DNA from: Streptomyces sp. DG1A-41
Lineage (GTDB): Bacteria > Actinomycetota > Actinomycetes > Streptomycetales > Streptomycetaceae
NCBI RefSeq assembly: GCF_037055355.1
Contig: NZ_CP146350.1
Coordinates: 1,387,001-1,451,000 of the forward strand
Direction of reading: 5' to 3'
DNA: 64,000 nt
The notes below the pieces were generated by a model. The model made no database searches, was not told where the DNA came from, and saw only the letters and a program-made list of their open reading frames with translations. Positions within the stretch are counted from its first letter, which is position 1, and each line of letters starts with the position of its first letter. Made by a program: the position numbers and the translations under genes. Below are positions 30,465-55,385 of this stretch, piece after piece.

Positions 30465-31586
30465 ATGCAGAGTCTTCCCACGCCGACCGAGGCAGATTCC
30501 GATTCCCTGGTCGCCGACGTTCCGCCGGAGGGCGTCGGCGGGCAGCACCGCACCCATCTGACCAGCACCCCCGAAGAGCTGCTGACCGCGTTGCCACTGA
30601 GCACGGCCGCGGCGCGGTCGGTGAGCGCCGGGCGCCGGATGACACGCGCGGTGCTGAGCGGTGACGACGACCGGATGCTCGTGGTGGTCGGCCCGTGCTC
30701 GATCCACGACGTCGACGCGGGTCTGGCGTACGCCCGGTCACTGGGTGAGCTGGCGGCCGAGCTCGCTGACGACCTGGCGGTGGTCATGCGGGTGTACGTC
30801 GAGAAGCCCCGCACCACCGTCGGATGGACCGGGCTGCTCGCCGATCCGGCGCTGGACGGCAGCCTGGATCTCGATCGAGGGCTGCGCACGGTCCGTACGC
30901 TCATGCTGGAGATCGCGGAAACGGGCCTGCCCATCGCCACGGAGTGGCTGAGCCCGGCGGCTCCGGCGTACCTGGCCGATCTGATCTCGTGGGGCGCGAT
31001 CGGCGCCCGGACCGTGGAGAGCCAGGTGCACCGGCAGCTGGCGAGCGGTCTGCCCATGCCCGTGGGCATGAAGAACGGCAGCACCGGCTCGGTGGGTGTC
31101 GCCGTCGACGCCATCCGGTCCGCGGCCGCCCGCCATGCCTACCTGGGCCACGGCCCGGACGGCCGGCCCGTCACCCTGCGCACGAGCGGCAACCCCGACT
31201 GCCACGTGGTGCTGCGCGGCGCCTCGGACCGGCCCAACTACCGCGCCGAGGACGTGCGCGAGACGGCGGGCCTGCTGCGGGCGGCCGGTCTGCCCTCGGG
31301 CGTGGTGATCGACGCCAGCCACGGCAACAGCGGCAAGGACCATGAGCGCCAGGCCCTCGTCGCCCGGGAGATCGGGGCCCAGGTCGCAGCCGGCGACAGC
31401 GACATCCGCGGCGTGATGCTGGAGGGCTTCCTGATCCCCGGGCGCCAGGATCTCGGGCGCGGCGAGCCCGTGTTCGGGCAGAGCGTCACCGACGCCTGCA
31501 TGGGGTGGGACGCCACCGTCGGCGTCCTCCGGGACCTGGCTGCGGCGACCCGTGGGCGCCGCACCGTGACGGCTTCCGTTCGCTGA
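30465..31586 (+). CDS. class I DAHP synthase (cluster copy)
   Basis: Condenses phosphoenolpyruvate and erythrose 4-phosphate, the entry to the shikimate pathway. 373 residues with the AroF/G/H-type blocks LVVVGPCSIHDVDAGLAYA, MRVYVEKPRTTVGWTGL, GARTVESQVHRQLASGL, PVGMKNGSTGSVGVAVDA and VVIDASHGNSGKDHERQ. ATG 30465 follows GAGGAACG. Streptomycetes usually use a class II enzyme for primary metabolism, so a class I copy at the head of a biosynthetic cluster points to dedicated, possibly feedback-relaxed, supply of aromatic precursor. It is followed by the LuxC-like gene after 54 bp. Confidence 0.93.
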   Translation: MQSLPTPTEADSDSLVADVPPEGVGGQHRTHLTSTPEELLTALPLSTAAARSVSAGRRMTRAVLSGDDDRMLVVVGPCSIHDVDAGLAYARSLGELAAELADDLAVVMRVYVEKPRTTVGWTGLLADPALDGSLDLDRGLRTVRTLMLEIAETGLPIATEWLSPAAPAYLADLISWGAIGARTVESQVHRQLASGLPMPVGMKNGSTGSVGVAVDAIRSAAARHAYLGHGPDGRPVTLRTSGNPDCHVVLRGASDRPNYRAEDVRETAGLLRAAGLPSGVVIDASHGNSGKDHERQALVAREIGAQVAAGDSDIRGVMLEGFLIPGRQDLGRGEPVFGQSVTDACMGWDATVGVLRDLAAATRGRRTVTASVR

Positions 31587-31640
31587 CCCCGCCCCCTCAC
31601 GTACGCCCCGTGACTCGCCGGAAGGAACAGGAGAGCGAGC

Positions 31641-33029
31641 ATGCTGGACATCCCCGCGCTGGGGCCGACCGGGCCCTACAGGACGCGGAACCGCACCACC
31701 GTGACGGACGCCTCGGGCGTAGCGGCACTTGAACTGGCCTCTGTCCCCGGCCTGGTCGTCTCCCACTGGATCGACCAGCTGCGCGCGAGTGCGCCGCTGC
31801 CCGTCGCACAGGCGGCGGACGTCCTCGCGAAGGCGGCCGGCGTCTTCGCGGACCAAGAGGTCCTGGGAGACGACCTGGACGCCCACGAGCGGCGGGTCGC
31901 GGAGCTGACGGGCACGCCCCTCGCGGTCGTGCGCGAGTGCGACCGGCTCATCACGGCGACCCTTCGCGACGTGGCACGCACCGCGTCCGCGGCCCGGCCC
32001 GCCGGCTGCGCCCCGGTCGGTACCGCCCCGTCGAAGTCACTGCCCGCGACGGCCGCCTGGCGCCGCACCGGGGACGTCCTCGCCGTGCACGCGGCGGGCA
32101 ACAGTCCAGGCGTCCACGCCATGTGGCCGGAGGCCCTGGCCCTCGGTTACCGCGTCGCCGTCCGTCCCTCCAACCGGGATCCGCTCACCCCACTCCGCCT
32201 CGTCACCGCGCTGCGGGAGGCGGGCGTACCGGCGACACAGCTGGTCGTGGCGCCCTGCGACCACGCGACAGCGGATCTGATCGTCGAGCGTTCGGACCGC
32301 GCCGTGGTGTACGGCGGGCAGGACGTCGTGGACAAGTACCGCGACCGGGCCGACGTCCGGTCGCAGGGGCCGGGCCGCTCGAAGCTGGTCGTGGCGGCCG
32401 ACGCCGACCGGGGCACAGGGCTCGAACTGGCCCGCACGGGTGCGCTCTACCACGCGGGAACCGCGTGCACGGCGACCACGGGCGTCCTGGTCGAGCACGA
32501 TCCGGCGGGATTCGCCGCCGAATTGGCCGCCGTGCTCGCCGAGGTGACACCGGCCGGGCCCGTGGCCGGCACGGCCCTGCTGCCCTGCATGCCGGAGGCC
32601 GACGCGCGGCGGCTCGCCACGGCGCTCCTGGACCGGACGGAGGACGCGGTCGTGCACCTCGCGCCACGGGTCGAGCGGCTCGGCGGCGAGGGGTCCCTGG
32701 CGGCCCTGACACCGGCGGTCGTGGAACTGACCTCCCCGAAGGACCCGCTGCTGTCGTACGAGATGCCCTTCCCGTGCGTGTGGGTCGCCCCGTTCGAACG
32801 CGGTGCCACGGACGTCCTCGACGGCTCCCTGGTGCTGTCGCTGCACACCGAGGACCTGGGGCTGATCGCCGCGGCCTCGGAGCTCACCTCGGTGTCCAAC
32901 GTGTACCGGAGCAGGCCGACCTCGTGGATCCACCCGGACGTGCCGCACGACGGGTTCCTCGGCGAGTTCCTGATGCGCGCCACCGGACTGGCGCTTGCCG
33001 ACGAGAACGAGACAAGGAGTGACAAGTGA
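31641..33029 (+). CDS. LuxC-like acyl reductase (aldehyde dehydrogenase superfamily)
   Basis: 462-residue NAD(P)-dependent enzyme expected to reduce an activated acyl group (thioester) to an aldehyde. It shows AVRPSNRDPLTPLRLVTAL in the cofactor fold, SKLVVAADADRGTGLELA, and YHAGTACTATTGVLVEHD with the nucleophile at about Cys276. The tail (DVPHDGFLGEFLMRATGLA) resembles LuxC/EhpG-type reductases more than ordinary aldehyde dehydrogenases. ATG 31641 follows AACAGGAGAGCGAGC. The next gene is a PaaK/LuxE-like ligase overlapping by 4 bp, which recreates the LuxC-LuxE pairing that converts an acid to an aldehyde. The substrate is probably aromatic (inference). Confidence 0.8.
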   Translation: MLDIPALGPTGPYRTRNRTTVTDASGVAALELASVPGLVVSHWIDQLRASAPLPVAQAADVLAKAAGVFADQEVLGDDLDAHERRVAELTGTPLAVVRECDRLITATLRDVARTASAARPAGCAPVGTAPSKSLPATAAWRRTGDVLAVHAAGNSPGVHAMWPEALALGYRVAVRPSNRDPLTPLRLVTALREAGVPATQLVVAPCDHATADLIVERSDRAVVYGGQDVVDKYRDRADVRSQGPGRSKLVVAADADRGTGLELARTGALYHAGTACTATTGVLVEHDPAGFAAELAAVLAEVTPAGPVAGTALLPCMPEADARRLATALLDRTEDAVVHLAPRVERLGGEGSLAALTPAVVELTSPKDPLLSYEMPFPCVWVAPFERGATDVLDGSLVLSLHTEDLGLIAAASELTSVSNVYRSRPTSWIHPDVPHDGFLGEFLMRATGLALADENETRSDK

Positions 33030-34351
33030 AGATCAACTCCAGTAGTGACCTCGACTTCATGGAGCGGATACAGCAGGAGGTGACCGCCCACCGCACCACT
33101 TCTGCCTCCGACTCGACCTACTACGCGTCGAAGCTGGGCGAGGCCTGGGACCGGGCACGGCAGACCTCCGCCTACGCCGCACTGGGCGCGTTCTCGGCGG
33201 ACGCGTTCCGCGACCTCGGGGCGACCTCCAAGGACGCCCTCAAGTCCCGGCCCCTCGACTATCTGCGCGTACCCGTCGAGGCGGGCCTGAAGTACTACCA
33301 GACCACGGGGACCACGGGGACCCCCACGCCCACGCCGCGCACCGCCCGCGACATGATCGCCAACACCGTGTCCGTGGCCGAGGCCTGGCGCGGCATGCTG
33401 ACGGGCGGCGGCCACCGCGCGCTGATCCTGCTGCCCTCGGACATCGTGCCGGTGGCCGATCTGATGGTCGGTGTCTGCGAGTTCCTGGACGTTCCCCACG
33501 TCAAGGCCTACCCGTACACCACCGGCATCTCCGACTGGGACCGCATCGTCGGACTGTGGGAGGTCTTCCGGCCGACCGTGCTCTTCGTGGCACCCGGGGT
33601 GCTCCTGGAGTTCTCCCAGGTGCTCAAGAGGCGCGGCCTGCTGGACCGGCTGCGCGAGTCGGTCGAACTCCTCATGCTGCTCGGCGAGGTGAGCACCCCG
33701 GAGCTGCGCGCCATGGCCGGGTCGTGGTGGGACGCGCGTGCCTACGACGCGAGTTACGGCAGCACGGAGAGCGGCACGCTGGCCGCGTGCTGCGCGCACG
33801 ACCGGCTGCATCTGCTGCGCGGGGCCAACTACTTCGAGATCGCGGACGGGAACGGCTTGGCGCCCGCCGAGGCCGGACGCGCGGGCCGGCTCGTCGTCAC
33901 GCCGCTCAACAACGACGCCCGCCCCCTGCTTCGCCTCGACATGGGCGACGAGGTGTCCGTCGCGGGCGGTTGCCCGTGCGGCCAGGACACTCCGACGGTC
34001 ACGGTCCACGGCCGGGGCAGCGACGGAACCGAGATCAAGGGCAGCCGGGTGCGCACGCGCGACCTCGAAGGCATCGTCTACGCGAACCGCGACGTCATGG
34101 GATACCTGATCGAGATCGACGGGGCGGGCACCTGGGCCCGGCTGCTGCTGGAGCGTGACCCCGGCACCGACCGGGACGCCGAGCGCGCCAAGAACGACGT
34201 CATCCAGCGGCGGACGGACGAGCACCTCGGCTTCCGGTGGGACGAGGTCCGGTTCGTCAACCGGCTGCCGGCGACGACAAAGAGCGGCGGCTCCCAGAAG
34301 AGCTGGAAGCGCTCCAACTTCCGGGTCGTGGACGAGGTGGTGCCGGCATGA
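33026..34351 (+). CDS. PaaK/LuxE-like AMP-forming acyl ligase
   Basis: 441-residue adenylate-forming enzyme related to phenylacetate-CoA ligase. The P-loop is KYYQTTGTTGTPTPTPRT, the A5 motif YDASYGSTESGTLAACC, and the adenylate-binding strand LLRLDMGDEVSVAGGCPCG. The C-terminal hinge contains VHGRGSDGTEIKGSRVRTRD, and NRLPATTKSGGSQKSWKR includes a Lys-rich end. GTG 33026 overlaps the reductase stop (GTGA), so the two are translated together. It probably activates the carboxylic acid for the LuxC-like partner, or loads it onto CoA or ACP. The following gene also overlaps by 4 bp. Confidence 0.85.
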   Translation: MKINSSSDLDFMERIQQEVTAHRTTSASDSTYYASKLGEAWDRARQTSAYAALGAFSADAFRDLGATSKDALKSRPLDYLRVPVEAGLKYYQTTGTTGTPTPTPRTARDMIANTVSVAEAWRGMLTGGGHRALILLPSDIVPVADLMVGVCEFLDVPHVKAYPYTTGISDWDRIVGLWEVFRPTVLFVAPGVLLEFSQVLKRRGLLDRLRESVELLMLLGEVSTPELRAMAGSWWDARAYDASYGSTESGTLAACCAHDRLHLLRGANYFEIADGNGLAPAEAGRAGRLVVTPLNNDARPLLRLDMGDEVSVAGGCPCGQDTPTVTVHGRGSDGTEIKGSRVRTRDLEGIVYANRDVMGYLIEIDGAGTWARLLLERDPGTDRDAERAKNDVIQRRTDEHLGFRWDEVRFVNRLPATTKSGGSQKSWKRSNFRVVDEVVPA

Positions 34352-36078: not shown

Positions 36079-36091
36079 AAGGCGCGCGATC

Positions 36092-36508
36092 TTGCCCACC
36101 GTCGATGTGACCAGCACCCCGCTCACCCCTTCCGCACGCCTGCGGGCGGCCCTGCGGCTCACCCGATGGATGGCCGCGCACGGCTCGAACGCCGCGCACG
36201 TCGTGGTCTCCTTCCGAACCTCCGAGCCCATGGAGTACTTCGCGGGCGGGATGCCGCTGACCACCTACGAGCACGGCACGGAGCCGGGCAAGCACGCCCG
36301 GTGGGCGTCGGTCGTGTGCCACGTCCACCCCGACCGTGACCACGCGTACCGGGCCGGACTGGCCGAGGAGATCGGGCAGGCGCTCGGTCTCGGCACGGAC
36401 ACCGCCCACCTGACGGTCCGTTTCCAGCCCACGCAGCCCGACCGGGTGTTCTACCTGGACTCGGGGTCGATGACGAGCGGCGACCCGCTACCGGTCGGCC
36501 GCGGCTGA
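36092..36508 (+). CDS. small tautomerase-like protein
   Basis: 138 residues from TTG 36092, 13 bp after the previous stop; GAAAGG lies 10 bp upstream. The product would begin Met-Pro-Thr-Val-Asp-Val. After Met removal an N-terminal Pro would be exposed, as in the tautomerase/MIF superfamily. Two successive beta-alpha-beta units fit that fold: one ends HVVVSFRTSEPMEYF, the other runs WASVVCHVHPDRDHAYRAGL to AHLTVRFQPTQPDRVFYL. Length about 120-140 agrees. The call rests on pattern only. A role in keto-enol isomerisation of an aromatic or polyketide intermediate is possible. Other small folds cannot be excluded. Confidence 0.45.
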   Translation: MPTVDVTSTPLTPSARLRAALRLTRWMAAHGSNAAHVVVSFRTSEPMEYFAGGMPLTTYEHGTEPGKHARWASVVCHVHPDRDHAYRAGLAEEIGQALGLGTDTAHLTVRFQPTQPDRVFYLDSGSMTSGDPLPVGRG

Positions 36509-36527: not shown

Positions 36528-36803
36528 ATGCAGACCCTCGACCACACCGAGATCAACAACCGCATACAGGCCGTCCTGGAGAAGCGCTTCGGCGACGCCG
36601 CCCGCACACTGTCCGGGGACGCGGACCTGACCGACGCGCTGCCGGGCTTCGACAGCCTGGCCGCCCTCGAATACGTCACCGCCGTGGAGGGCGAGTTCGG
36701 CATCGAGGTCGACTTCGTCGGCGACGACGTGCGCTACTGGTTCAGCACGCTCGGCCGGACCACCGAGTACGTGCGCGAGCGCGTCGAGGACCTCGCGGCA
36801 TGA
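36528..36803 (+). CDS. acyl carrier protein
   Basis: 91-residue free-standing carrier. The phosphopantetheine site is LPGFDSLAALEYVTAVEGEF with Ser43, preceded by DADLTDALPG. The rest is helical and acidic (VRERVEDLAA). ATG 36528 follows GAGAGAAAGG. The next gene, an AMP-forming enzyme, overlaps its stop (ATGA), which argues that this enzyme loads the carrier. It could shuttle an aryl or cinnamoyl group to the LuxC-like reductase or to the polyketide synthase. Which of the three ligases uses it is not known. Confidence 0.92.
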   Translation: MQTLDHTEINNRIQAVLEKRFGDAARTLSGDADLTDALPGFDSLAALEYVTAVEGEFGIEVDFVGDDVRYWFSTLGRTTEYVRERVEDLAA

Positions 36804-37840
36804 CGGAGACGGCGGCCCGTACCGAGGGGCCGGGGACCAGGGACGGCGAGATCCGCTTCGACACCTCCGGCAGCACGGGAGCCGCGCGCCGCTGGTTCCG
36901 GCTCCCCCACCAGTTGGAGCGCGAGGTGGAGCTGATCGGCGCGGTACTCGTCGGCCCGGTCGACCGGGTCGTCAACTTCGCCCCGCCGCAGCACCTGTTC
37001 GGCGCGCTGTTCGGCGAGTGGCTGCCCCGCATGGCGCGGATCCCGGTCCACCAGGCGTGGGCCGACCCGTACGCGCCCCTGCCGGCCTCGCCCGGTGAAC
37101 GGGTGCTGGCCGTCTGCATCCCCATGGCCTGGGACCTGCTGCGGCGCGGCTGGCCGGGGCTGGAACGCGCGAGCTCGGTCGTCGCCCTGCACAGTTCGGC
37201 GGCACCGCCGCCCACGGCCCACGCGCTGGTCGGCCGCGCCGCCCCGCTGCTGCGGGCGCACGAGATCCTCGGGTCGACCGAGACCGGTGGGCTCGCCCAC
37301 CGGCAGCTGGTTGCCGAGGGGCGGGACGCCCAGCCGTGGCAGGCCTTCCCCGACGTGTCCTTCGTGCGGGAGGCCGGCACCCCGCCGGGAGCCGCCGAGG
37401 AGCTGGTCGTCCGCGGCCCGCGCCTGGCCCGCCCGGAGAGCGGGACGCTGCCGCCCGACCGGTGGGCCACGGGCGACCTGGTGGAATTCACCGGCCCCCG
37501 TGCGTTCCGGCTCATCGGGCGCAGCGGCTCCCTGGTCAAGGTGAACGGGATCAAGGTCCATCTCGCCCGGGTCGACGAGCGGCTGAAAGCGCTTCTGCCG
37601 GGGGCGGAATGCGTCGCGCTGCCCCTGGACGGCGATTCCCTCGCCGGTGAGGGCTACGCCGTCTACTGGGCCGGCCGGGGCGACGACACCGTGGGCGTGG
37701 CCGACGTCAGAGCGGCCTTGGAGGATTTCCCGAGCCCGTCGCGGCTCGTGGAACTGGCGGAGATCCCGAGGACCCCCACCGGAAAGCCGGACCACAAGGC
37801 CCTTCTCGCGGAGCCGGCTTCGCCCTCCGCACGCCTGTGA
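36800..37840 (+). CDS. short AMP-forming acyl-ACP ligase
   Basis: 346-residue adenylate-forming protein, shorter than the usual ~500 because the N-terminal subdomain is reduced. Motifs seen: IRFDTSGSTGAARRWFRL (P-loop), RAHEILGSTETGGLAHRQ (A5), RWATGDLVEFTGPRAFRLIG (A7/A8 with Arg), VKVNGIKVHLARVDE, and PRTPTGKPDHKALL with the catalytic Lys. Such compact ligases are found in aryl-polyene and related clusters, where they load aryl or fatty acids onto a carrier. Translational overlap with the ACP gene supports that role here. Substrate inferred to be the ammonia-lyase product or a derived acid. Confidence 0.82.
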   Translation: MTETAARTEGPGTRDGEIRFDTSGSTGAARRWFRLPHQLEREVELIGAVLVGPVDRVVNFAPPQHLFGALFGEWLPRMARIPVHQAWADPYAPLPASPGERVLAVCIPMAWDLLRRGWPGLERASSVVALHSSAAPPPTAHALVGRAAPLLRAHEILGSTETGGLAHRQLVAEGRDAQPWQAFPDVSFVREAGTPPGAAEELVVRGPRLARPESGTLPPDRWATGDLVEFTGPRAFRLIGRSGSLVKVNGIKVHLARVDERLKALLPGAECVALPLDGDSLAGEGYAVYWAGRGDDTVGVADVRAALEDFPSPSRLVELAEIPRTPTGKPDHKALLAEPASPSARL

Positions 37841-37891: not shown

Positions 37892-38671
37892 TTGGAGTGT
37901 TCGACTCTGTCCAGGTTGATCGTGGTGACCGGCGCGAGCGCGGGCATCGGCAAGGCCACGGCGAAGCGTTTCGCCGAGAACAACGACAAGGTCCTCCTGA
38001 TCGCACGGCAGGAGGAGCGACTCGCACGGACGGTGCGGGAGATCGAGTCGAGCGTGCCGGGCGCGGACGTGCAGCCACTCGCCCTCGACATGTCCGACGC
38101 CGCGTCGGTCAAGCGCCTGCGGGACCACGTCCGGTCGACGGGACTGCCCGTCAGCGGGCTGCTGTGCTGCGCCGGAGCCGTCCCGCGGTCCGGGGACACG
38201 GACGCGGACGCGGACGACGTGACATCGGTCCTGACGGAATGGCAGGAGGCCTACCAGGCGAACGTGACGACCGCGGTCGTCGCCGTGGAGGGCCTGCTCC
38301 CCGACCTGGCCGACGGCGGCAGCATCGTGCTCTACAGCTCCATCGCCGCCTACCGGGGATCCGGCGGGACGGGTGGCTACGGCGCCGCGAAGGCCGCCCT
38401 CCACTCCTACGTCCACACCCTCGCGACACGCCTCGGATCGCGCGGCATCAGCGCCAACGCGATCGCGCCGGGCTACGTCGCCGACACAGACCTCTTCGGC
38501 GGCGCCCTGCCCGCCGCGCGCGAGACCATGCTCGTCCGGCATACCGCGCTGGGACGTGCGGGAGACCCGGTGGACATCGCCGAACTCGGCTTCTACCTGT
38601 GCTCGGGCCCCGGCGGCTACGTCACCTCACAGATCCTCCAGATCAACGGCGGCTCGTCACACGGCGTCTGA
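37892..38671 (+). CDS. SDR family NADPH-dependent reductase
   Basis: 259-residue short-chain dehydrogenase. It has the cofactor loop IVVTGASAGIGKATAKRF, GLLCCAGAVPRSG (NAG-like position), catalytic SIVLYSSIAAYRGSGGTGG with YGAAKAAL (Tyr-x-x-x-Lys), and the classical tail GYVTSQILQINGG. It may reduce a beta-keto group for the KR-less polyketide synthase, or the aldehyde made by the LuxC-like enzyme. The start is uncertain: TTG 37892 lacks a ribosome site, TTG 37916 is also in frame, and a CTG at 37907 lies 9 nt after GGAG and would give the usual xSRLIVVTGAS beginning. Confidence 0.88.
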   Translation: MECSTLSRLIVVTGASAGIGKATAKRFAENNDKVLLIARQEERLARTVREIESSVPGADVQPLALDMSDAASVKRLRDHVRSTGLPVSGLLCCAGAVPRSGDTDADADDVTSVLTEWQEAYQANVTTAVVAVEGLLPDLADGGSIVLYSSIAAYRGSGGTGGYGAAKAALHSYVHTLATRLGSRGISANAIAPGYVADTDLFGGALPAARETMLVRHTALGRAGDPVDIAELGFYLCSGPGGYVTSQILQINGGSSHGV

Positions 38672-38719: not shown

Positions 38720-39772
38720 ATGAACGCCCGCGAACAGGCCGACGCGCACGTCCGCGCCATGATGCGCTGGCACTTCGACCCGGCCACGGGTTCCCGGTAC
38801 TGGCTGGAACGCCGCGACAGGCTGGGGTTCGACCCGGTCGAGGACGTGCGGTGCGTCGACGACCTGCTGCGCTTTCCCAATCTGGTGGACGAGCTCCGGG
38901 ACGTCCCGGTCGAGGACCTGATCCCCCGCGGCCTGGACGCCTCGGAGAAGGTCCTCGCGGTGTACGAGAGCGGTGGCACCACCGGAGCGCCGAAGCGCTT
39001 CGTGATGTTCGAGAACTGGCTCGACCAATACATGGCCTGGGAGAACTCCCACTACACGGACGACGGCCGGGGGCACGCGCTGGCCGTGGCGCCCAGCGGA
39101 CCGCACATGCTCGGCGAGTACTCCCGCAGGATCGCGGAGGCCAGGGGCGGGATCCGGTTCTCCATCGACCTGGATCCGCGCTGGGTGAAGCGTCTTGTCG
39201 CCACCGGTGACACTGCCGGCGCCGGAGCTTACGTCGACCATCTCGTCGACCAGGCCGAACTGGTCCTGAGCTCACAGGACATCGCGTTCCTGATCACGAC
39301 ACCGCCACTGCTCGCCCGCATGTCCGAGCGGGCCTCGGTCCGTGAGCTGATCGAGGAGAAGGTGCGCCTGGTGATCTGGACCGGCGCGCACATGGACCCC
39401 GACACCCTGGACTTCCTGTCCACCCAGCTCTTCCCCAAGACGCGGTTCCGCGGGTCGTACGGCAGTACCTCCGTGCTCAGCGGCACGGTGCAGCGGCCCG
39501 ACCCGCAGGGCACGGGCGACACGGTCTTCGACTCGTACGCCCCCTACGTGTTCTACCGGGTGGTCGACCCCTCCTCCGGACGGCCGGTCGAGTTCGGGTC
39601 GGACGGAGCCGTGGTCATGAACTACCTCACCAAGTACGGCCTCGTACCCAACAGCCTCGAACGGGACCTGGCGACTCGGGTCCCGAGCCCCACCGGCGTC
39701 GGGGACTCCCTGCGGAACATCCACCCGGTCGCCGAGATGGACGGCCGGAAGCTGATCGAAGGCGTCTACTAG
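38720..39772 (+). CDS. EhpF-like AMP-forming enzyme
   Basis: 350 residues, equal to the N-terminal domain of adenylating enzymes only. The P-loop is VYESGGTTGAPKRFVMFEN, then AVAPSGPHMLGEYSRRIAE. A5 is FRGSYGSTSVLSGTVQ, and GSDGAVVMNYLTKYGLVPN is close to the C terminus. The family contains EhpF, which activates a phenazine carboxylate before reduction to an aldehyde, so it is a third candidate carboxylate activator and a natural partner of the LuxC-like reductase. ATG 38720 is 14 bp after GGTGAG. It lies between the SDR and the ammonia-lyase genes, all on one strand. Confidence 0.78.
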   Translation: MNAREQADAHVRAMMRWHFDPATGSRYWLERRDRLGFDPVEDVRCVDDLLRFPNLVDELRDVPVEDLIPRGLDASEKVLAVYESGGTTGAPKRFVMFENWLDQYMAWENSHYTDDGRGHALAVAPSGPHMLGEYSRRIAEARGGIRFSIDLDPRWVKRLVATGDTAGAGAYVDHLVDQAELVLSSQDIAFLITTPPLLARMSERASVRELIEEKVRLVIWTGAHMDPDTLDFLSTQLFPKTRFRGSYGSTSVLSGTVQRPDPQGTGDTVFDSYAPYVFYRVVDPSSGRPVEFGSDGAVVMNYLTKYGLVPNSLERDLATRVPSPTGVGDSLRNIHPVAEMDGRKLIEGVY

Positions 39773-41428: not shown

Positions 41429-41480
41429 AGCAAGCAAGGCACCGCGCCGCGCGTGGTGCGCGACCAAGGAGTTGCATCGC

Positions 41481-42817: not shown

Positions 42818-42980
42818 CCGCCCATTGTCGCAAGTGGTCACCCGCACAGGGGGGCCGTATCAGGGTCAGGCACAGCACGCCCCCGCACGGCTCGGTCTGC
42901 CGGGGACCTGGTGAGCCGGGCACGCTGGTCGGGTAGGGGCGCGGTCGACATCCGGCATTCGATGACCCGTTCGATTTCAT

Positions 42981-46198: not shown

Positions 46199-47499
46199 CG
46201 GTGCTCCTTCGTCATGCCGGCCGTGCCGACGGGGTGTTCGTATCGGGGGAAGAGGCGTCGCATCTCGTCGTGGAAGCCCGGGAACGTCTTGGCGACGCAC
46301 GTCGGATCGTCGAGGGTGACGGTCCCGGGGGCCGCGAGTCCGAGCACCGAGAACGCCATGGCGATCCGGTGGTCCCGGCCGCAGGAGATGCGCGCGGGCC
46401 GGAGTGGCCCCGGGTGGATGGTGACGCTGTCGGCGCCCTCCCGTGTCGCGACTCCGCACGCCGTCAGATTGGCGACGACCGCCGCGATCCGGTCGGACTC
46501 CTTGAGCCGCGCGTGGCCGATCCCCCGGATGGTGACGGGGGCGTCCGCCAGCGGTGCGACGGCGGCGAGGGTCATGAACGTGTCGGAGATCTCGCCCATG
46601 TCGACGGTGAATCCACCACGCAGCCCGTCGCCGCCGGTCACCGTGGTCGCGGCCCGGCCCACGTCCACCCGGGCACCGGCCCGCGCCAGAACCTCGGCGA
46701 ATCGCAGGTCGCCCTGCAGGCTGTCGGCGCTCAGGCCGGGCACCGTCACGGACTGCCCGGTCACGGCAGCGGCGGCGAAGAAGTACGAGGCGGTCGACGC
46801 GTCCGGCTCGATCGCCACGTCGGTCGCCGTGTACGCGCCGGGTTCGGCCGCGAAGCCGCCGTCGTCCCGCTCCCGGACCCGCGCGCCGAAACGGCGCATC
46901 AGGGACACCGTCATGGCGATGTAGGGGCGGCTGACCAACCGCCCTCCCCTCACCACGAGTCCACGGCGCATCAGGGGCGCCGCCATCAACAGGCCGCTGA
47001 GGTACTGGCTGCTCATCGACGAGTCCACCGTGACCTCACCGCCGTCCAGGCCGTCGGCCAGGATGATCAAGGGCAGGCCGCCGCCCGGGCCAGCGCCGGC
47101 CCGCACCCCGATCCGGGAAAGCGCGTCGAACAACGCCCTCTGCGGACGCGCGCGCAACTGCGCGGAGCCGTCGACGAGAAAGGTGCCGTGCCCGGTCGCG
47201 GCGAAGGGCGGAAGGAACCGGCCCGCAGTGCCGGCGTCCGCACACCACAACCGGGCCGTACCGACGGGACCCTTCCCGACCCCGACCACGTCCCAGGCGT
47301 CAGGCAAGCAGTTTTCGACCCGCGCGCCCAGTGCCTCCACGGCTTCCCGGAACGCCACGGTGTCGTCACTGACGAGCGGATTCCGAACGCGGCTGACGCC
47401 GCCGGCGGCGGTGGCCAACAGGAGCGCTCTATTGGTCAAACTCTTCGAACCCGGTATCCGGGCGATGGACGCCGATGTGTGCGGGGCGGACGCGCTCAT
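46195..47499 (-). CDS. aroA: 3-phosphoshikimate 1-carboxyvinyltransferase (EPSP synthase, cluster copy)
   Basis: Transfers the enolpyruvyl group of PEP to shikimate 3-phosphate. 434 residues: [20 protein letters not shown] near the N terminus, [37 protein letters not shown] and [18 protein letters not shown] are seen, and the tail has [16 protein letters not shown]. The PEP-site loop reads [11 protein letters not shown] where many enzymes have NAGTAxRxL(P/T). ATG 47499 follows GGAAAGGAATGC. First gene of the minus-strand shikimate operon. Its promoter region is shared with the FAD monooxygenase gene and holds operator copy B. Confidence 0.95.
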
Positions 47500-47749: not shown

Positions 47750-49348
47750 ATGTCCGTTGAGCGAGTTCCCGTACTCGTCGTCGGTGGCGCCTACACCGGG
47801 CTCACCACCGCTGTGAGCCTCGCAGCCCGCGGCGTGCGTCCCCTGCTGGTGGAGCGCCGGCCGCATGCCTCGACCCTGCCGAAGGCATGGGGCCTGAACA
47901 CGCGTTCCCAGGAACTGCTCAACACGCTGCCCGGCGTGGCCCGGCGCCTGCGTGCCGCCCTGGGCGAGGCGCAGTGGCCCCGCATGAGCCACGGCGTCTC
48001 CCTGGCCGATCCGCAGCGGACCTTCCTCGACCCCGAGGCGGGACAGCCCGACCCGCAGGCGCTGTCCTCGGTTCCTCCGCTGGCCTGGGTGTCGCAGGCC
48101 CAGGTCGAGAACATCCTCCGGGTCAGCGCCGAGGAGGCCGGCGCAAACCTGCGTCTCGGCACGGAGCTGGTTTCCCTCACCCAGGACGAGGAGAAGGTCA
48201 CCGCGACGCTGCGGGAGGTGTCCACCGGCCGCGCGTACACGGTCGAGGCGGACTACCTGGTCGCAGCCGACGGAAACACCAGCGGGATCCGCGACATGCT
48301 CGGCATTCCCGTCCACGGCGGCGGAACCATCGGCCACATGTACATCATCACGTTCGAGGCCGACCTGACCCGGTACGTGGAGAAGGGCGCGGTCGAGGTC
48401 ATCGGCATGCCCGGCAGCGGGTCGAGTTTCATCCTGGACGGCTCGGAGCGGCACACCCTGTGGGTCGACTACTTCCCCGAGCGGGGCGAGACGCCGGAGG
48501 ACTTCACCCCGGAGCGCTGCCTGGAGCGGATCCGCGCCGCCATCGGAGATCCCGAGATCGACGTCACCTTCGTCAACGCCCGCTTCTTCCCCATCAACCA
48601 CAAGATGGCCGAGCGTTTCCGCGAGGGCCGCGCCTTCCTCGCCGGGGACGCCGCGCACGCCTGCCCGCCGAACGGAGGACAGGGCGGCAACCTCGCCATC
48701 CAGGACGCCTACGACCTGTCCTGGCGGCTTTCCCTGGTGCTCACCGGACAGGCCGGGCCCGGTCTGCTCGACACCTACGAGAGCGAGCGCCGTCCGGTCG
48801 TCAGCATCACCTTGGAGCGCGAGCTGGAACTGGCGAAGATCTCCGAGGGCCGGGTCCCCGCGAGTTACAACCCCGCCGATCCGCACGCGCCCATTCCCAA
48901 GCCCAAGGAATACCTGGGCTTCCGTTATCACTCACCGGCGGTCCACACGGAGGCCCACGACGACGGCAGCCTCCAGGAGGACCCGTGGAATCCGACCGGG
49001 CGCCCCGGCGGACGAGCTCCGCACGTCGTTCTCTCCGACGGCTCACGGGAGTTCTCCACGCACGACCTGTTCGGTCGCGGCTTCGTCCTGCTGGCCGGGC
49101 ACGAGGCCCCTGGATGGGTCGCCGCCGCGGAGAAGGTGGCCCGCAGTCTCGGAGTCACTCTCACCGCGCACCGGATCGGTGACCGCCTGGCCGACAGCGA
49201 GAACGCCTGGTGCGACCGGTACGGCGTCGAACCGGCCGGCGCCACACTGATCCGACCGGACGCCGTCGTGGCCTGGCGCGGCAAGCGGGCCGCCGACGAT
49301 CCGGAGGGCGACCTCACGACCGCCCTGAACGCGATACTCGCCCGCTGA
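47750..49348 (+). CDS. FAD-dependent aromatic hydroxylase (PheA/TfdB-like)
   Basis: 532-residue class A flavoprotein monooxygenase of the kind that hydroxylates phenols and aromatic polyketides (TcmG/RdmE/PgaE relatives). It has the FAD loop VLVVGGAYTGLTTAVSLA (GGAYTG in place of GGGPxG), DYLVAADGNTSGIRDMLGI (DG motif) and GRAFLAGDAAHACPPNGGQ (GD motif), followed by a thioredoxin-like C-terminal domain (FVLLAGHEAPGW). ATG 47750 follows AACGGAGG. It stands alone, divergent from the shikimate operon, and ends at a terminator. It probably decorates the aryl or polyketide product. Confidence 0.9.
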   Translation: MSVERVPVLVVGGAYTGLTTAVSLAARGVRPLLVERRPHASTLPKAWGLNTRSQELLNTLPGVARRLRAALGEAQWPRMSHGVSLADPQRTFLDPEAGQPDPQALSSVPPLAWVSQAQVENILRVSAEEAGANLRLGTELVSLTQDEEKVTATLREVSTGRAYTVEADYLVAADGNTSGIRDMLGIPVHGGGTIGHMYIITFEADLTRYVEKGAVEVIGMPGSGSSFILDGSERHTLWVDYFPERGETPEDFTPERCLERIRAAIGDPEIDVTFVNARFFPINHKMAERFREGRAFLAGDAAHACPPNGGQGGNLAIQDAYDLSWRLSLVLTGQAGPGLLDTYESERRPVVSITLERELELAKISEGRVPASYNPADPHAPIPKPKEYLGFRYHSPAVHTEAHDDGSLQEDPWNPTGRPGGRAPHVVLSDGSREFSTHDLFGRGFVLLAGHEAPGWVAAAEKVARSLGVTLTAHRIGDRLADSENAWCDRYGVEPAGATLIRPDAVVAWRGKRAADDPEGDLTTALNAILAR

Positions 49349-49368
49349 GCCGCACCCGGACGCGGCAC

Positions 49369-49399: not shown

Positions 49400-49414
49400 G
49401 ACGGGCCGTACCCC

Positions 49415-50449
49415 TCAGGCCACGCGGTGATTCGCCGCGGACATCCCGGAGCCGGACTCGAGCATGTGGTCGCGGACGATCCACCCGGCCTGGAAGCGGC
49501 TCTGCGCGCCCAGATCACCGAACATCTCCGCTATGTACTTCCGGCATGTCCGCACCCCGATGCCCAACCGCCGGGCCACCACTTCGTCCTTGTAACCCGC
49601 CGCGAGCAGCTGGACGATCGCGGTCTTCGTCTCCTGGGTCAGGCAGTCGGGGATGCGGTTGCTACCGCCCGTTCGCCCAAAGGCCACGCTCGTCGCCCAG
49701 GCGCTCACGGCCATGTGCACGATGAACTCGACCAGGGCCCCGTGCTTCACCATGTGGGCCCTGCCGGTGTCTTCGCCATCCAGCAGGAACGCCACGGAGC
49801 GGTCGAAGACGATCAGGGGCGGTATGGACGCGGCGGTGGTCCGCACCTCGCCACCCGACGCCGAGATCCGTTCGGCGCAGTGGCGCACCTCCGCGTCGTA
49901 GCGGGACAGGTGCGGGAGCAGCACTCGTACGCCGACCGAGGAGGGGATCCGCCCGGAGTCCTCAAAGACCATGTCCCGGGCGAGCGCCGGGGCCCCCTGT
50001 CCCAGGGGCTGCACGGCGAACACCTCCTCGGTGCACCGCGCCGCGCAGCCCTGGAGCAGCTCGCGGATGTCGGAGACCCCCTCGACCGTGACCACGGGGC
50101 TGGCGCCCGGGCCCTCCGGGCCGTCGGCGCTGAGGCTGGAGAGTGCGTTGAGCTGCTCACGGATGCCGTCCAGCTGGGCCTGCCAGGCGTCTATGACACC
50201 GGAGAGGGGCTCGGCGTACTGGAGCTTGGCGGTCTCGGGATCGACCGCGATCCAGTCGCTGCGGTCCTCGGCCCTGGATCGGGCCAGCTTCATCTTTCGC
50301 AGCCTGGCCAGCACACGTTCCGTCCGGCCGGCGCCCCATCCGAGACCGCTCGCGAGTCTCTCGAGCCTGGCCCCACCGGAGGCGACCAGGAACTGATAGG
50401 CCGTCAGTTCCTCTTCGCCCATGAGCGGTACGAGCTGGGTGATGTCCAC
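49415..50449 (-). CDS. TrmB/LuxR-hybrid transcriptional regulator (probable cluster regulator)
   Basis: 344 residues. The N-terminal winged helix is TrmB-like (ELTAYQFLVASGGARLERLA, then RVLARLRKMKLARS). A middle domain contains VSDIRELLQGCAARCTEEVF and ends VAFLLDGEDTGRAHMVKHG. The C-terminal LuxR-type HTH is TAIVQLLAAGYKDEVVARRL followed by VRTCRKYIAEMFGDLGAQSR. GTG 50449 follows GGGGGAGTGCT, a strong site; the frame to 50551 is a run-on. It is divergent from the PKS gene (255 bp apart). It is the best candidate for binding the 35-bp cluster operators, though that is not shown. Confidence 0.85.
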   Translation of the reverse strand: MDITQLVPLMGEEELTAYQFLVASGGARLERLASGLGWGAGRTERVLARLRKMKLARSRAEDRSDWIAVDPETAKLQYAEPLSGVIDAWQAQLDGIREQLNALSSLSADGPEGPGASPVVTVEGVSDIRELLQGCAARCTEEVFAVQPLGQGAPALARDMVFEDSGRIPSSVGVRVLLPHLSRYDAEVRHCAERISASGGEVRTTAASIPPLIVFDRSVAFLLDGEDTGRAHMVKHGALVEFIVHMAVSAWATSVAFGRTGGSNRIPDCLTQETKTAIVQLLAAGYKDEVVARRLGIGVRTCRKYIAEMFGDLGAQSRFQAGWIVRDHMLESGSGMSAANHRVA

Positions 50450-50704
50450 AGCACTCCCCCTAACCAACTTCGGAAACTGCGAAGCAAGAATAAACATAGG
50501 CACAGTTATGAACGCAAGTCCAAATTTTTGCCCCGAGTGCAGAAAGGTCAAGCGACCTCAAAGTGGGCGATTCTGCCGGTCCGAGGCCCAAGCTCTCGTG
50601 AAGAGTGTGAGGGGATCCCAGGCGAATAATGGTCGCGAGTGTATTTTTGGATCCCGACTTGATCGATCATCTGACTCGCCCACGACTGAAGCCTGGAGTC
50701 GTTT

Positions 50705-53700
50705 ATGCGTCCAGAACCCTCGAGCCCTGCCCCCGTGGCGATCGTCGGCATGGGGTGCCGGTTACCGGGGATCGGGAGTGTCGACGAGCTGTGGGACGTC
50801 CTCGTGGCCAACACCGACACCGTGACCCCGGTCCCCCACGACCGCTTCGATGTCGGCGCGTGCCACGACACCGCCCCCATGACCCCCGGCCGGACCGTGT
50901 CCCGGCACGGCGGCTTCCTCACCGACCCCTTCGAATTCGATGCGGCGTTCTTCGGCGTCTCCCCCGCGGAAGCACGCGACATGGACCCGCAGCAGCGGCT
51001 CCTGCTGCACGTGGTGTGGGAAGCCCTGGAGTCGGCCGGGATACGCCCCTCCCTGCTCGCCGGCAGCCGGGGCGGCGTGTTCGTCGGGCAGGCGACGTCC
51101 GAACACGCGGACACCGACCCCCGCGCCCACGAACCGGACGTCCGCGGCATGGTCGGCGGCCGGCTGCGCGCGGTCACCGCCGGCCGCGTCTCCTACGCCC
51201 TCGACCTGCGCGGACCGAGCGTCGTACTGGACACGGCCTGCTCCTCGTCGCTGGTCGCCGTGCACGCGGCACGGCAGAGCCTGCTCACCGGCGAGAGCGA
51301 CCTGTGCCTGGCCGCGGGCGTCAACGTCGTCCTGTCCCCGCACGACGCCATCGCCTATTCCCAGGGCGACATGCTCTCCCCCGGGGGTCGCTGCCGCTTC
51401 GGCGACGCACGCGCCGACGGGTTCGTCCGCAGCGAGGGCGTGGGCGCGGTGGTGCTCAAGCGACTGGACGACGCGGTCCGCGACGGCGACCCCGTGTGGG
51501 CGGTGCTGCTCGGCAGCGCGGTCAACAACGACGGCGCGGGCAGCGGCCTGTTGATCCGCCCCTCCGAGCACGGCCAGGCCGACATGCTGCGCGAGGCCTG
51601 CGCCAGTGCCGGCGTCAAGCCCTCCGAACTCGACTACGTCGAAGCGCACGGCACCGGAACGAACGTCGGTGACGGAGTGGAGCTCCGGGCGCTCGCCGAG
51701 GCCGCCGGGGCGGGCCGGCCCACGGACCGGCCCCTGCTGACCGGATCGGTCAAGACCAACCTCGGCCACACCGAGGCCGCGGCCGGCATCGCCGGTCTGC
51801 TCAAGGCGGCGCTGATACTGCGGCACGGTGTCGTTCCCGCGTCGCTGCACCTCGACGAGCCGCACGCCCTGCTCGCTCAGGACGACTTCCCCGTACGCGT
51901 GGTCACCCGCAACCGGCCTCTGGCAGCGGCCGGTTCACGCGCCCTGGTCGGCGTCAGCTCCTTCGGTCTGTCCGGCACGAACGCCCACGCGGTCCTCGGC
52001 GCCCACATCCCCGCCCCGGCGCCCGCGGAGACGGCCGAGACCGACGGCACCGCTTCGGACGCCGGCCCACATCTGCTCGTGCTCAGTGCCCGGACCCCCG
52101 GATCCCTCCGTCGCCTCGCCGAGCGCTACGCCGCCTACCTCGCTCCCCACGGGGCCGGACGCAGGTACCGGCTCGGCGACATCTGCTCCGCGGCGGCCAC
52201 CGGGCGCGACCACCACCCCCACCGGCTGTGGGCCGTGGGCGACGACCACGACTCCCTGTCGCAGCGGCTGTATGCCCTCGCCGCCGGGGAGGCGCTGCCC
52301 GACGGCGGGACGGCCGACGCGGGCCTGTCGGGTGACAAGGACGTCGCGTTCGTCTTCTCGGGGCAGGGCGCGCAGTGGGCCGGCATGGGCCGGGGACTGT
52401 ACCGGTCCTCGCCCGCCTTCCGGAGGACGTTGGACGCCTGCGACGGTGCGGTGCGCCGGGAGCTCGGCTGGTCCCTCGTGGACCGGCTGATGTCCGACGA
52501 CTCCGAGTTCCCCACCGACGTGGCGATCGTTCAGCCCGCCCTGTGGGCCGTACAGGTGGCGCTCGCCGCCGCCTGGCGCGAGCACGGCGTGGAGCCGGGT
52601 CTGTGCATCGGGCACAGCATGGGAGAGGTCGCGGCCGCCCACGCCTGCGGCGCCCTGTCGCTCGACGACGCGGCCGCGGTGATCTGCCGTCGCAGCCGGC
52701 TGATGCAGCGCGCGGCGGGGCAGGGCGCCATGCTCGCGGTCGAGCTGTCGCCCGACCGGGCACGGCGGTACGCCGAGCCCCACGGGGAGTCGGTGTGCGT
52801 GGCGGTCGAGAACGCCCCCGACACCACCGTCCTGGCGGGCGACCCCGGGCCCCTCGCGGCCCTCCGGGCCGAACTGGAGGAGAGCGGAGTCCTGTGCCGT
52901 GCGGTGAAGGTGAACGTGGCCTCGCACTCGCCCCAGATGGACGCGCTGCGCGAGGACCTGCTGCGGGAGCTGGCCGGCCTCTCCCCGCCTCCGGCACCAC
53001 GCGCATGGTCTCCACCGTCGACGGATCCGAGATCGAGGGCTTCGAACTGACGGCCGCCTACTGGATGGACAACCTGCGCCGCCCCGTACGGTTCGCCGAC
53101 ATCGTACGGAAGGCGGCTCAGGAGGCGGAGCACGTCTTCCTCGAGGTCAGTCCCCATCCGGTCCTCGTCGCGGCCGTGGACGACACCCTGGGCGGCGGCG
53201 ACACCGGCGCCGCGGCGGTGGCCTCCCTGCGCCGCGCGTGCGACGAGACCGCCGAACTCGCCCGGGCGGCCTGGCTCTTCGCCCAGGGCGGCCGGGTGGA
53301 CTGGCTGCGCTGGTACGGCGACGGCCCTCGGCACGTGCCCTCGCTTCCCACCTATGCCTGGGACGCGGTCCGGTTCCGGCGCGAGGCGGCCGCGCCTGTG
53401 GGCGGGCACCGCTCCCCCGCCTCCAGGGTCCGGCAGCTGGATCTCGCGTCCTGGGCCGCGACCGACGACTGGGGTGACGGCGTGGCGGTCGGCGGAATCG
53501 CACCCGTGCCCCCCGTCGTGTATCTGGAGGCGCTGCTGGAATCGGCGCGAGAGGCGGATCGCGGCACCTCGTTCGAACTGCGGGACGTGCGGCTGGGCGA
53601 CACGTACGTGCCCCTCGACGCGGCTGGGGAAACGATCCTCCGGGTAGCCCTCGACGGACACCCGGACGGGGACGGACCGGGCCGCCCGGCGACCGTGCAC

Positions 53701-54678
53701 GCCGTGATCGGAGACGCCCTCGCCCCCGTCCACTGCGCCTCGGCCCGGGTCGTCGTCGTGGACGGCGGCGATGCCGCCCCCGTGGACCCGGACGCCCTCG
53801 ACTCCGCGCTCGCACGGTGCCGGGAGTATCTGGGAGCACAGGACTTCCCGGACTTCGCGCGGCGCCAGGGCTACGACGTCGCGGAGCCGTTCCGGGCCGT
53901 GGCGCACCTGTGGCGGCGCGACGGCGAAGCCGTGGCTCTCGTACGGCCGGCCGAGCCCCTGCCCCGGGCCGGCTGGGAGAGGGGCCTGCAGCCGGTCCTC
54001 GCGGCCCGGCCGGGGGCCATGTCCGGCGAGGGCACCGCGTACGTTCCCGAGTCCTTCGACTCGGTGCGTCTGTATGGCGAGCCCGAGCGGGAGTTCTGGA
54101 GCGTGAGCAGCGTGCGCGCGGAGGGCGGCGGAGCCCGGCTGGTGGCCGATGTCCTCCTGATCGCCCCGGACCGTCGCGTCCTGGCCCGGTTCTCCGGGAT
54201 CCGCTTGCGGCGGCTCGCCGGTACATCCCCGGCGACCACTCCGCTGGCACAGGTGTCCGCCTTCGTGTCGGCGGTCTCCGGGCAGTGCGCGGCCCCCCTC
54301 ACCAGCCTGGTCAGAAAGGTCACGGAACCCTTGGGGGCCGGCTTCCTCACCGGCCTGCTGCCCGCCGGCCCGGCCGGGAGTCATCACCCCCACTCCAGCA
54401 GGCCGCCCCGCATGACCGCCCCCGGTTCCAGGACCCCGCGGACGCACTGGTCGAGATCTCCGCGGCACTGCTGGGCATGCCCGCGTCGGACCTCGACGAG
54501 CACCGGTCGTTGCGCGAGCTCGGGCTCGACTCCCTCATGGCCTCCCAACTGCGGCAGCGCCTGCGCCGCGGGCACGGCATCGACATCACCGCCAGGCCTC
54601 CTGGGCACGGAGAGCGTCGCGGGCCTGCGCGAGAGCCTGACCCGGTCCGACGCGCCGACCGGCCGTAGACATGAGTAG
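50705..54678 (+). CDS. iterative-looking type I polyketide synthase KS-AT-DH(degenerate)-ACP, three frame breaks
   Basis: Corrected length about 1324 residues. KS (50732-52000): DTACSSSLVA with Cys179, VEAHGTGTNVGD and NLGHTEAAAG. AT (about 52340-53140): VFSGQGAQWAGMG, GHSMGEVAAA with Ser638, VASHSPQMD at the specificity site. Then LPTYAWDAV and a DH-like hot-dog fold (53430-54220) whose first catalytic His aligns with Val (VAVGGIAPVP), so it is probably not a working dehydratase. ACP: ELGLDSLMASQ, Ser at 54531-54533. No KR and no TE. This is the layout and size of orsellinate-type synthases. Single-base indels: near 52980-52990, in the C5 run at 54418-54422, and at about 54596-54598. Codon 20 is TTA (50762-50764), implying bldA control. 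The 255-bp gap upstream is shared with the regulator. Confidence 0.88.
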
Positions 54679-54758
54679 GGTCGGCACACAAACTTGCACC
54701 ATGGTATAAGAAACTATCGCCGGATACGACGGCCGCGACCCGAACGGAAGGGGACCCC

Positions 54759-55385
54759 ATGGACGCGCGCGCGACAACGACGACGCCGCCGGTCGGCCGC
54801 CGGGAGCGCAACAAGCAACGGGTCAGAGAACGTCTCTACATGGCCGCGGTCGAGCTCTTCGTGGAGAAGGGGTACGACCAGACATCCATCGACGAGATCG
54901 CGGAGCGGGCCGATGTGGCACGTGGCACCTTCTTCAACTACTTCCAGCGCAAGGAAGACATCATCGGCGCCTGGGGAGAAAGGAGGCGTGCCGCACTCGT
55001 GACGGGCCTCGAAGAGAGCGGCGCGTTCACTCCCGGCTCGATCGCCAGGCTCCAGCAGTGCATGGCGGTCCTCGTGCGGATCAACCAGGAGGAGCCCCGG
55101 CTCACCACCGCCATGCTCACCGCCTGGGTCAAGGCGGGCCGACCGATCCTGGAGGAGCCGTATGTCGCGGAGGTGTTCGCCTCGATCGTCGACAGCGGGA
55201 TGGTCCAGGGCGAGCTGAACCCCGGAATGTCGCCCATCGGTGTCGGCAACGTGCTGCGGGACGTCTACCTCGGCGCGCTCTACCGCTGGGCCAGCCAGTC
55301 ACCGAACACGACCCCGCTGGCCGAGGAACTGCAGCAGATCCTGCAACTCCTCCTCGACGGCATGACCGCGCCGAAGACGCCCTGA
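54759..55385 (+). CDS. TetR family transcriptional regulator (cluster edge)
   Basis: 208 residues. The HTH is QTSIDEIAERADVARGTFFN (about 42-61), followed by YFQRKEDIIGAWGERRR, the usual TetR turn. The C-terminal ligand domain ends LLLDGMTAPKTP. ATG 54759 follows AACGGAAGGGG. It follows the PKS gene by 80 bp on the same strand, and the gap includes ACCATGGT (54700-54707), a small palindrome that may be its own site. It is the last gene of the accessory block and could respond to the cluster product or an intermediate. Confidence 0.88.
   Translation: MDARATTTTPPVGRRERNKQRVRERLYMAAVELFVEKGYDQTSIDEIAERADVARGTFFNYFQRKEDIIGAWGERRRAALVTGLEESGAFTPGSIARLQQCMAVLVRINQEEPRLTTAMLTAWVKAGRPILEEPYVAEVFASIVDSGMVQGELNPGMSPIGVGNVLRDVYLGALYRWASQSPNTTPLAEELQQILQLLLDGMTAPKTP

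Follow-up and report, generated by a model that had tools for sequence, protein, structure and literature searches.

The stretch of DNA considered here, called the window throughout, comprises 64,000 nucleotides of Streptomyces sp. DG1A-41 (bases 1387001-1451000 of the 8.99 Mb single-contig genome). Gene calling via third-position GC, with gene identities from Pfam and NCBIfam scans, places one real biosynthetic cluster at ~30.5-55.4 kb (table 1). The heart of this cluster is a run of five genes, for a PaaK-like ligase (ligase 1), an alpha-alpha-toroid protein, a small protein termed orf5, a free acyl carrier protein (ACP) and a short AMP-forming ligase; neither the aromatic ammonia-lyase nor the polyketide synthase (PKS) belongs to it. 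A first-pass annotation, made from the sequence alone, had listed the gene set, counted three AMP-forming proteins and placed core genes of the genome on both sides. Nearly every named gene is confirmed by the family scans, and the three AMP-forming proteins and the flanks are borne out as well.

Distribution of the five-gene core

Loci for comparison were found with the short ligase or the toroid, and neither the 3-deoxy-D-arabino-heptulosonate 7-phosphate (DAHP) synthase nor the methylideneimidazolone (MIO) lyase was used for finding them. Genomes and loci are cited by G and L labels, G000 being the window genome. The toroid search covered 394 genomes of the family. Matches of any kind occur in 68 of these; nine are strong, including the window's own, and the rest are weak repeat matches. 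A scan of named genomes with a short-ligase alignment gave 78 loci from the best 80 matches, and a toroid gene lies within the 10-kb flanks in 23 of the 78. Tabulated were L047-L068, L072, L074 and L095 (all 23 toroid-bearing loci and, in addition, L056 and L065, in which no toroid is seen), together with the eight other genomes strong in the toroid search. This yields 31 toroid loci besides the window, 23 found by ligase and eight by toroid. One is on a cut-off contig, and the stretches are mostly 20-40 kb, so that absence from them is no proof.

Within this set, ligase 1 is present in 30 of the 31 loci, the exception (L057) being a 3.9-kb contig. Both orf5 and the ACP exceed 50 bits in 26 loci with the window proteins as queries, and in the remaining five (G015, G054, G093, G163 and G207) they are matched at 47-62 bits by queries from other core loci. 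A DAHP synthase accompanies the core in 27/31 loci, as a class I enzyme in six and a class II enzyme in 21 (labelled by Pfam in L054 and L066 and by similarity in the others), and 24/31 have a MIO gene near the core, of one type or another or of both. Other neighbours identified by Pfam are an amidase (22/31) and an asparagine-synthase-type gene (12/31), both absent from the window and from its six orthologues. As a control, 12 evenly spaced 20-kb stretches of G100, the genome of a relative, were searched: none contains any core gene, DAHP synthase or MIO gene, and together they give two short-chain dehydrogenase (SDR) matches, two MFS matches and one PKS match.

The core also occurs in Pseudomonas, there without a nearby lyase, and on two Rhizobium rhizogenes plasmids, pAtK84c (L157, 6586-13640) and pC5.7c (L158, 13619-20683). 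Identities on the plasmids are 37-42% for the PaaK-like ligase, 43% for the toroid and 27-32% for the short ligase. Matches to orf5 (22%) and the ACP are weak but positional, and the pAtK84c orf5 starts Met-Pro-Thr. Amidase, GNAT, SDR and ATP-grasp genes lie alongside, and the annotation of the plasmid core genes goes no further than F390 synthetase or AMP-binding protein, prenyltransferase and hypothetical proteins. Toroid family members assigned by name to Pantoea and Citrobacter are found among the best 120 of 312. In a separate group, many toroid-less actinobacterial loci of the range L069-L100 (short-ligase match at ~10001) have a MIO gene ~50-200 bases from the short ligase; these pairs are another lyase-ligase family.

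Table 1. Features of the cluster and its immediate right border in the window. Cut-offs are those of the family models.
Feature	Coordinates	Strand	Evidence and remarks
Class I DAHP synthase, first in plus-strand run	30465..31586	+	TIGR00034 417 bits, cut-off 173
Aldehyde dehydrogenase (ALDH)-superfamily acyl reductase, LuxC/EhpG-like by context	31641..33029	+	Pfam Aldedh E 1.1e-14; motif GTAC
Core: PaaK-like ligase 1 (BagE/FevW, AjiA1-like)	33026..34351	+	NCBIfam BagE_FevW 79 bits, below cut-off 800
Core: alpha-alpha-toroid protein, 576 amino acids	34348..36078	+	True start about 34348
Core: orf5, predicted cis-CaaD/MIF tautomerase fold	36092..36508	+	TTG start; Pro is second codon
Core: free ACP	36528..36803	+	Pfam PP-binding 23.6 bits, cut-off 20.8; DSL motif in translation
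Core: short AMP-forming ligase, overlapping ACP gene	36800..37840	+	TIGR02372 (4-coumarate ligase) 72 bits, below cut-off 335
SDR	37892..38671	+	Pfam adh_short_C2 E 1.2e-41
EhpF homologue, second PaaK-like protein (aryl-acid adenylating enzyme)	38720..39772	+	PDB EhpF 3l2k/3hgu E 2e-85
MIO aromatic ammonia-lyase, probably tyrosine	39908..41428	+	Pfam E 3e-162; N-terminus uncertain
AOC/dirigent-like barrel protein	41400..41954	+	PF18678 E 1e-21; Dirigent E 0.0015, below its cut-off
XRE/MmyB-type regulator	41951..42847	-	PF17765 E 3.5e-56
MFS exporter	43047..44444	+	PF07690 E 3e-55
Second shikimate kinase (aroK)	44502..45017	-	PF01202 E 2.3e-43; other genome copy at 1470303
Second chorismate synthase (aroC)	45014..46192	-	TIGR00033 460 bits; start approximate, open reading frame (ORF) extends to 46459
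Second, divergent EPSP synthase (aroA)	46195..47499	-	TIGR01356 378 bits; start approximate, ORF extends to 47643
FAD aromatic hydroxylase (RdmE-like)	47750..49348	+	FAD_binding_3 E 2.6e-84; RdmE 487 bits, below cut-off 700
LuxR-type regulator	49415..50551	-	Weak HTH_23 and GerE matches, below cut-offs
Type I PKS, ketosynthase (KS)-acyltransferase (AT)-(dehydratase (DH)-like)-ACP	50705..54678	+	Three frame changes
TetR regulator	54759..55385	+	PF00440 E 9.5e-16; 79% to G100 counterpart
Barstar-like protein, directly after TetR gene	55413-55760	-

To the left the cluster is bordered by IMPDH (28628-30268), and to the right the barstar-like gene is followed by genes for a sugar-binding-domain protein, RsmB, Fmt and PriA. 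IMPDH borders the cluster in S. guryensis as well (L049 from 1764), and the locus may therefore be an inherited position. By eye, the N-terminus of the AOC/dirigent-like protein resembles a signal peptide.

Proteins of the core and their partners

The protein orf5 has no Pfam match above cut-off. Its predicted structure (pLDDT 84) has the beta-alpha-beta fold of the tautomerase superfamily and matches cis-CaaD and Cg10062, with 8-22% identity in the listed structural rows. All 20 aligned homologues start Met-Pro-Thr, the proline directly following the initiator methionine. Four of 80 homologues are named 4-oxalocrotonate or phenylpyruvate tautomerase, and none of the 80 has a Pfam domain. On this model, orf5 is taken to be a cis-CaaD/MIF tautomerase-fold protein with an invariant Met-Pro. 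It has in common with the cis-CaaD/MIF/4-oxalocrotonate tautomerase superfamily the fold and the invariant Pro-1 position, and differs in its low identity, its lack of a Pfam assignment and its location in an ACP cluster.

The toroid model (pLDDT 92) is an alpha-alpha barrel that matches Rab geranylgeranyltransferase (GGTase) beta over residues 10-288, and the second half of the protein resembles the first (blastp E 1.5e-7). Two activities known for such folds were considered and rejected. Protein prenyltransferases bind zinc through an Asp-Cys-His triad. When the toroid is aligned to Rab GGTase beta by phmmer, which gives a weak alignment, the Asp is in place, the Cys lines up only if a gap is allowed, and the His falls on Trp220, which is invariant in 21/21 toroid sequences. 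Class II terpene cyclases carry a DxDD motif, found in none of the 21. Protein prenyl transfer and class II terpene cyclization are therefore unlikely. In having neither the zinc His nor DxDD, and in being built of two homologous halves, the toroid departs from protein prenyltransferase beta subunits and squalene-hopene cyclases alike. Twelve arginines are invariant in all 21 sequences and would suit an anionic or carrier-bound substrate. The chemistry of the toroid and orf5 is not deducible from their relatives.

Ligase 1 is similar to AjiA1 in the PDB (E 3e-25). From the 24 loci L101-L124, ten relatives of the short ligase with long ORFs were picked, all of them from outside the Actinobacteria, and every one carries a fused ApeI/FabA-type domain, an arrangement known from aryl polyene systems. 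From the 4-coumarate ligase model score and these fused dehydratase-domain relatives, the most likely role of the short ligase is to charge the ACP, whose gene overlaps that of the ligase, with an aryl acid. Residues 9-350 of the EhpF homologue align to residues 22-366 of solved EhpF, a full-length homology. The reductase gene, described in the first-pass annotation as LuxC-like, is present and belongs to the ALDH superfamily, but LuxC itself (PF05893) is not among its Pfam matches at E<=0.001, where Aldedh appears instead. The motif HAGTACTATT, with its conserved Cys, is found in 6/6 orthologues. Homology to EhpF, together with an ALDH-type partner bearing a conserved Cys, suggests reduction of an aryl acid to the aldehyde.

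The MIO lyase has an ASGD motif and its best NCBIfam match is the BagA_FevW tyrosine ammonia-lyase (TAL) model, at 654 bits and below the cut-off of 1000; it probably acts on tyrosine. Selectivity of such enzymes is read at two positions, which are His-Leu in Rhodobacter TAL. The MIO copies of the core loci differ at these positions, and His-Leu appears in a more distant group. An aligned His was tried as a TAL mark and dropped once the register showed Tyr-His in the window enzyme and His-Leu in that distant group. The MIO genes of L045, L060, L063 and L064 have a Ser-His stretch as in tyrosine aminomutase (PDB 2qve), and some core clusters may, judging by this feature, make beta-tyrosine. The cinnamate-type unit proposed at first pass stands: from the BagA-type lyase match, the short ligase, and EhpF with the reductase, it would be tyrosine-derived, activated and probably reduced.

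Orthologous clusters, shikimate supply and the polyketide synthase

Orthologous clusters are present in six other genomes. All six keep the order reductase, ligase 1, toroid, orf5, ACP, short ligase, EhpF homologue, and the set of EhpF, reductase and AOC-like genes defines seven clusters, the window's included. The EhpF homologue, the class I DAHP synthase and the AOC-like gene (single copy in the window genome) are found in 6/6, the MIO lyase in 5/6, and the SDR at the same place in 5/6, G100 being the exception. The DAHP synthase, AOC-like, SDR, MFS and XRE genes are relocated or missing in some of these clusters. The FAD, LuxR and PKS genes together adjoin the core in G100, G395, G396 and G398 as they do in G000. 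In G394 the LuxR and PKS genes are together on a different contig from the core. The LuxR-like gene lies beside the PKS in G394, G395, G396 and G398, three of which also show the end of the FAD gene, and the regulators of the four are 65-76% identical to that of the window.

Two relatives depart from this pattern. In Actinokineospora bangkokensis the core is retained along with the EhpF, reductase, MIO, FAD, LuxR and AOC-like genes, the DAHP synthase and AOC-like genes being relocated, and the genome has no PKS orthologue (best match 44%). The S. minutiscleroticus cluster is without a MIO gene, its EhpF and AOC-like ORFs lying about 40 bases apart, and only 37-39% MIO copies occur in that genome. 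The PKS and the lyase are thus both dispensable parts. The first-pass annotation had joined the two in a single cluster, and the synteny test, run on the relatives, upholds this for streptomycetes, where FAD-LuxR-PKS stands beside the core. It is improbable, though conceivable, that two or more neighbouring pathways meet here, the aryl-ACP core making one compound and the PKS part another aromatic polyketide. Such a division would account for Actinokineospora, where no PKS orthologue accompanies the core and the lyase, FAD and LuxR genes, and for the window genome, where the PKS could be lost while the rest remains. Against it stand the FAD-LuxR-PKS order kept beside the core in five genomes, the LuxR-PKS pair of G394, and the FAD gene, which stays with the core in Actinokineospora.

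A dedicated shikimate supply had also been proposed. The second copies are real. The aroK-aroC-aroA trio, however, is not conserved among the orthologues, and the DAHP synthase alone is. This enzyme is the genome's only class I copy, with two class II loci elsewhere. One of these (G000:C1:2600206-2601303) possibly belongs to another secondary-metabolite cluster. There are two aroC copies in the genome; that of the cluster is 94% identical to the other and 96% to the sole match in each of two other genomes, which suggests recent capture. One strong aroK match lies beside each aroC, and a weak third kinase match occurs in the genome. The two aroA copies are only 40% alike, and the cluster copy is 69% identical to one in the S. 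glaucescens genome. Within the stretches examined the trio is complete in none of the six orthologous clusters: of its genes, aroC is seen in L048 and part of aroA in L049, and the contig of L047 stops short. Its position, between the MFS or SDR gene and the FAD gene, is occupied in L048, L051 and G100 by a zinc alcohol dehydrogenase (identified by Pfam for the L048 copy) that has no match within the window. In S. guryensis weak fragments of aroA and of the alcohol dehydrogenase are all that is seen. The trio is accessory and was dropped from the conserved core; the DAHP synthase is the conserved supply gene. In S. glaucescens (L058 9212-18900) a different core cluster has its own class II DAHP synthase, MIO and SDR genes and an aroA-aroC-aroK run, and the genome gives four aroC matches.

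Duplicated enzymes of a primary pathway may also serve as resistant spare targets. If the product inhibited the shikimate pathway, the trio, and perhaps the DAHP synthase, would protect the producer. Three consecutive enzymes are duplicated together in this cluster, the aroA copy has strongly diverged from its counterpart, and the S. glaucescens core cluster likewise carries all three genes. The explanation is nevertheless quite unlikely, given that no orthologous cluster shows the trio, with the scope given above, that aroC is so close to ordinary copies as to be hardly an altered target, and that the conserved gene is a supply enzyme.

The PKS gene of the window runs through KS-AT in one frame to ~53.0 kb, continues in a second frame to ~54.4 kb and in a third thereafter, and is back near ~54.6 kb. 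The orthologues in G100, G394, G395, G396 and G398 are single open frames of ~1320-1454 amino acids. Pfam finds KS, AT, PS-DH (DH-like) and PP-binding domains in the G100 protein and no ketoreductase (KR). HxxxGxxxxP, the DH motif, is not found in the DH-like region of any of the five. When the intact PKS was used as query against PDB sequences, the matches listed were modular and iterative PKSs, with no recognized orsellinate synthase among them. The first-pass designation as an orsellinate-type PKS fits the gene type, as the KR-less KS-AT-DH-like-ACP architecture of the G100 orthologue illustrates, but the window copy itself is broken and is either dead or misassembled. There is a substantial minority chance that the whole window cluster is silent and decaying; the PKS would then be a pseudogene and the alcohol dehydrogenase would have been lost. 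The three frame changes within one gene, the unmatched alcohol dehydrogenase of G100, L048 and L051, and the fragments in S. guryensis all point in this direction. Conversely, every other cluster gene is open with strong third-position GC, and where DNA is GC-rich, such changes of frame can stem from faulty assembly.

Proposed pathway and relation to known systems

The reading favoured here, and considered reasonably probable, is that of one secondary-metabolite cluster built on a recurrent aryl-ACP core, in which chorismate is converted via tyrosine to p-coumarate, which is loaded onto the ACP, remodelled, released and reduced. Starting from the observed gene content and conservation, the predicted folds of two proteins and the broken PKS frame, we infer every reaction and the order of events. 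(i) The extra DAHP synthase, aided here by aroK, aroA and aroC, would raise chorismate and hence tyrosine. (ii) The MIO enzyme would convert tyrosine to p-coumarate. (iii) The short ligase would place p-coumarate on the free ACP. (iv) The toroid, the tautomerase-fold protein and the SDR are candidates for remodelling the ACP-bound acyl group. (v) Ligase 1 may then join or release this group as an amide or ester. (vi) The EhpF homologue and the ALDH-type reductase would reduce an aryl acid to the aldehyde. (vii) The FAD enzyme probably hydroxylates the ring. (viii) In relatives, the non-reducing KS-AT-ACP PKS would add a polyketide-derived aromatic unit, and (ix) the zinc alcohol dehydrogenase would reduce the aldehyde; both steps look lost in the window genome. 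(x) The MFS protein presumably exports the product, and the XRE, LuxR and TetR proteins would regulate the cluster.

Several observations weigh against this scheme. No MIO gene was found in seven of the 31 stretches (L051, L054, L055, L057 with its short contig, L061, L072 and L074). In L051, L054 and L055 the rest of the genome offers no more than 30-39% MIO copies, probably of HutH type, and in the two Pseudomonas genomes a 47% copy lies elsewhere in the genome. From these loci it follows that the core can do without a tyrosine lyase, and the short ligase may load a different acid. The window lyase reads Tyr-His and not the His-Leu of Rhodobacter TAL, and the window proteins score below the NCBIfam cut-offs of the BagA, BagE and 4-coumarate ligase models. 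The DAHP synthase was not found in four of the 31 stretches (G015, G054, G093 and L095). The presence of the short ligase and toroid in the loci is partly by construction, as they were the search queries. Against the first-pass interpretation stand the PKS, which is without an orthologue in Actinokineospora and broken in the window, the absence of the lyase in S. minutiscleroticus, and the accessory status of the aro trio.

A five-gene block shared by Streptomyces, Pseudomonas and Rhizobium plasmids, in most cases close to its own DAHP synthase, points to an unassigned compound family that is probably shikimate-derived. With a prenyltransferase fold that has neither zinc His nor DxDD, beside a Pfam-less tautomerase-fold protein, the toroid suggests chemistry hidden by family names. 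More speculatively, the toroid and the Pro-1 tautomerase-fold protein could act together as a new catalytic pair, remodelling an ACP-tethered aryl acyl group and defining a new class of shikimate-derived natural products across actinobacteria, pseudomonads and rhizobial plasmids. An equally tentative part of this idea is a monolignol-like branch in the window lineage, composed of the tyrosine lyase, EhpF and ALDH-type reduction, the zinc alcohol dehydrogenase of relatives and the dirigent-like barrel, which would be secreted. Versions with an intact PKS in named public genomes make the cluster experimentally accessible.

In the open PMC full-text literature, with subscription papers mostly outside it, no published cluster was recognized as this gene set. 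The scleric acid cluster, as far as the accessible part of its description goes (PMC6335953), shares a DAHP synthase and otherwise has different genes; it was set aside. Three systems offer partial parallels. Flexirubin and aryl polyene starter systems (FlxA, FlxY, Ape-type ligases) combine a lyase, an aryl ligase and an ACP. The window proteins leave the corresponding cut-offs unmet (FlxA 334 of 700 bits, FlxY 64 of 520), and unlike these systems the window has no chain-extending ketosynthase set beside the core. Bagremycin and ferroverdin clusters, devoted to coumarate chemistry, bring together the same tyrosine-lyase and PaaK-like ligase families. Here too the window scores lie below cut-off (BagA 654 of 1000 bits, BagE/FevW 79 of 800), and no aminohydroxybenzoate synthesis genes are among the matches for the genes scanned. 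The window cluster is further distinguished by its ACP, toroid, tautomerase-fold protein and EhpF homologue, none of which, to our knowledge, belongs to bagremycin biosynthesis. The EhpF/EhpG system operates in the biosynthesis of D-alanylgriseoluteic acid, a phenazine. Phenazine core genes are not among the matches for the genes scanned, and what the two systems appear to have in common is the pairing of an EhpF homologue with an ALDH-type reductase, giving a like logic of aryl acid to aldehyde.

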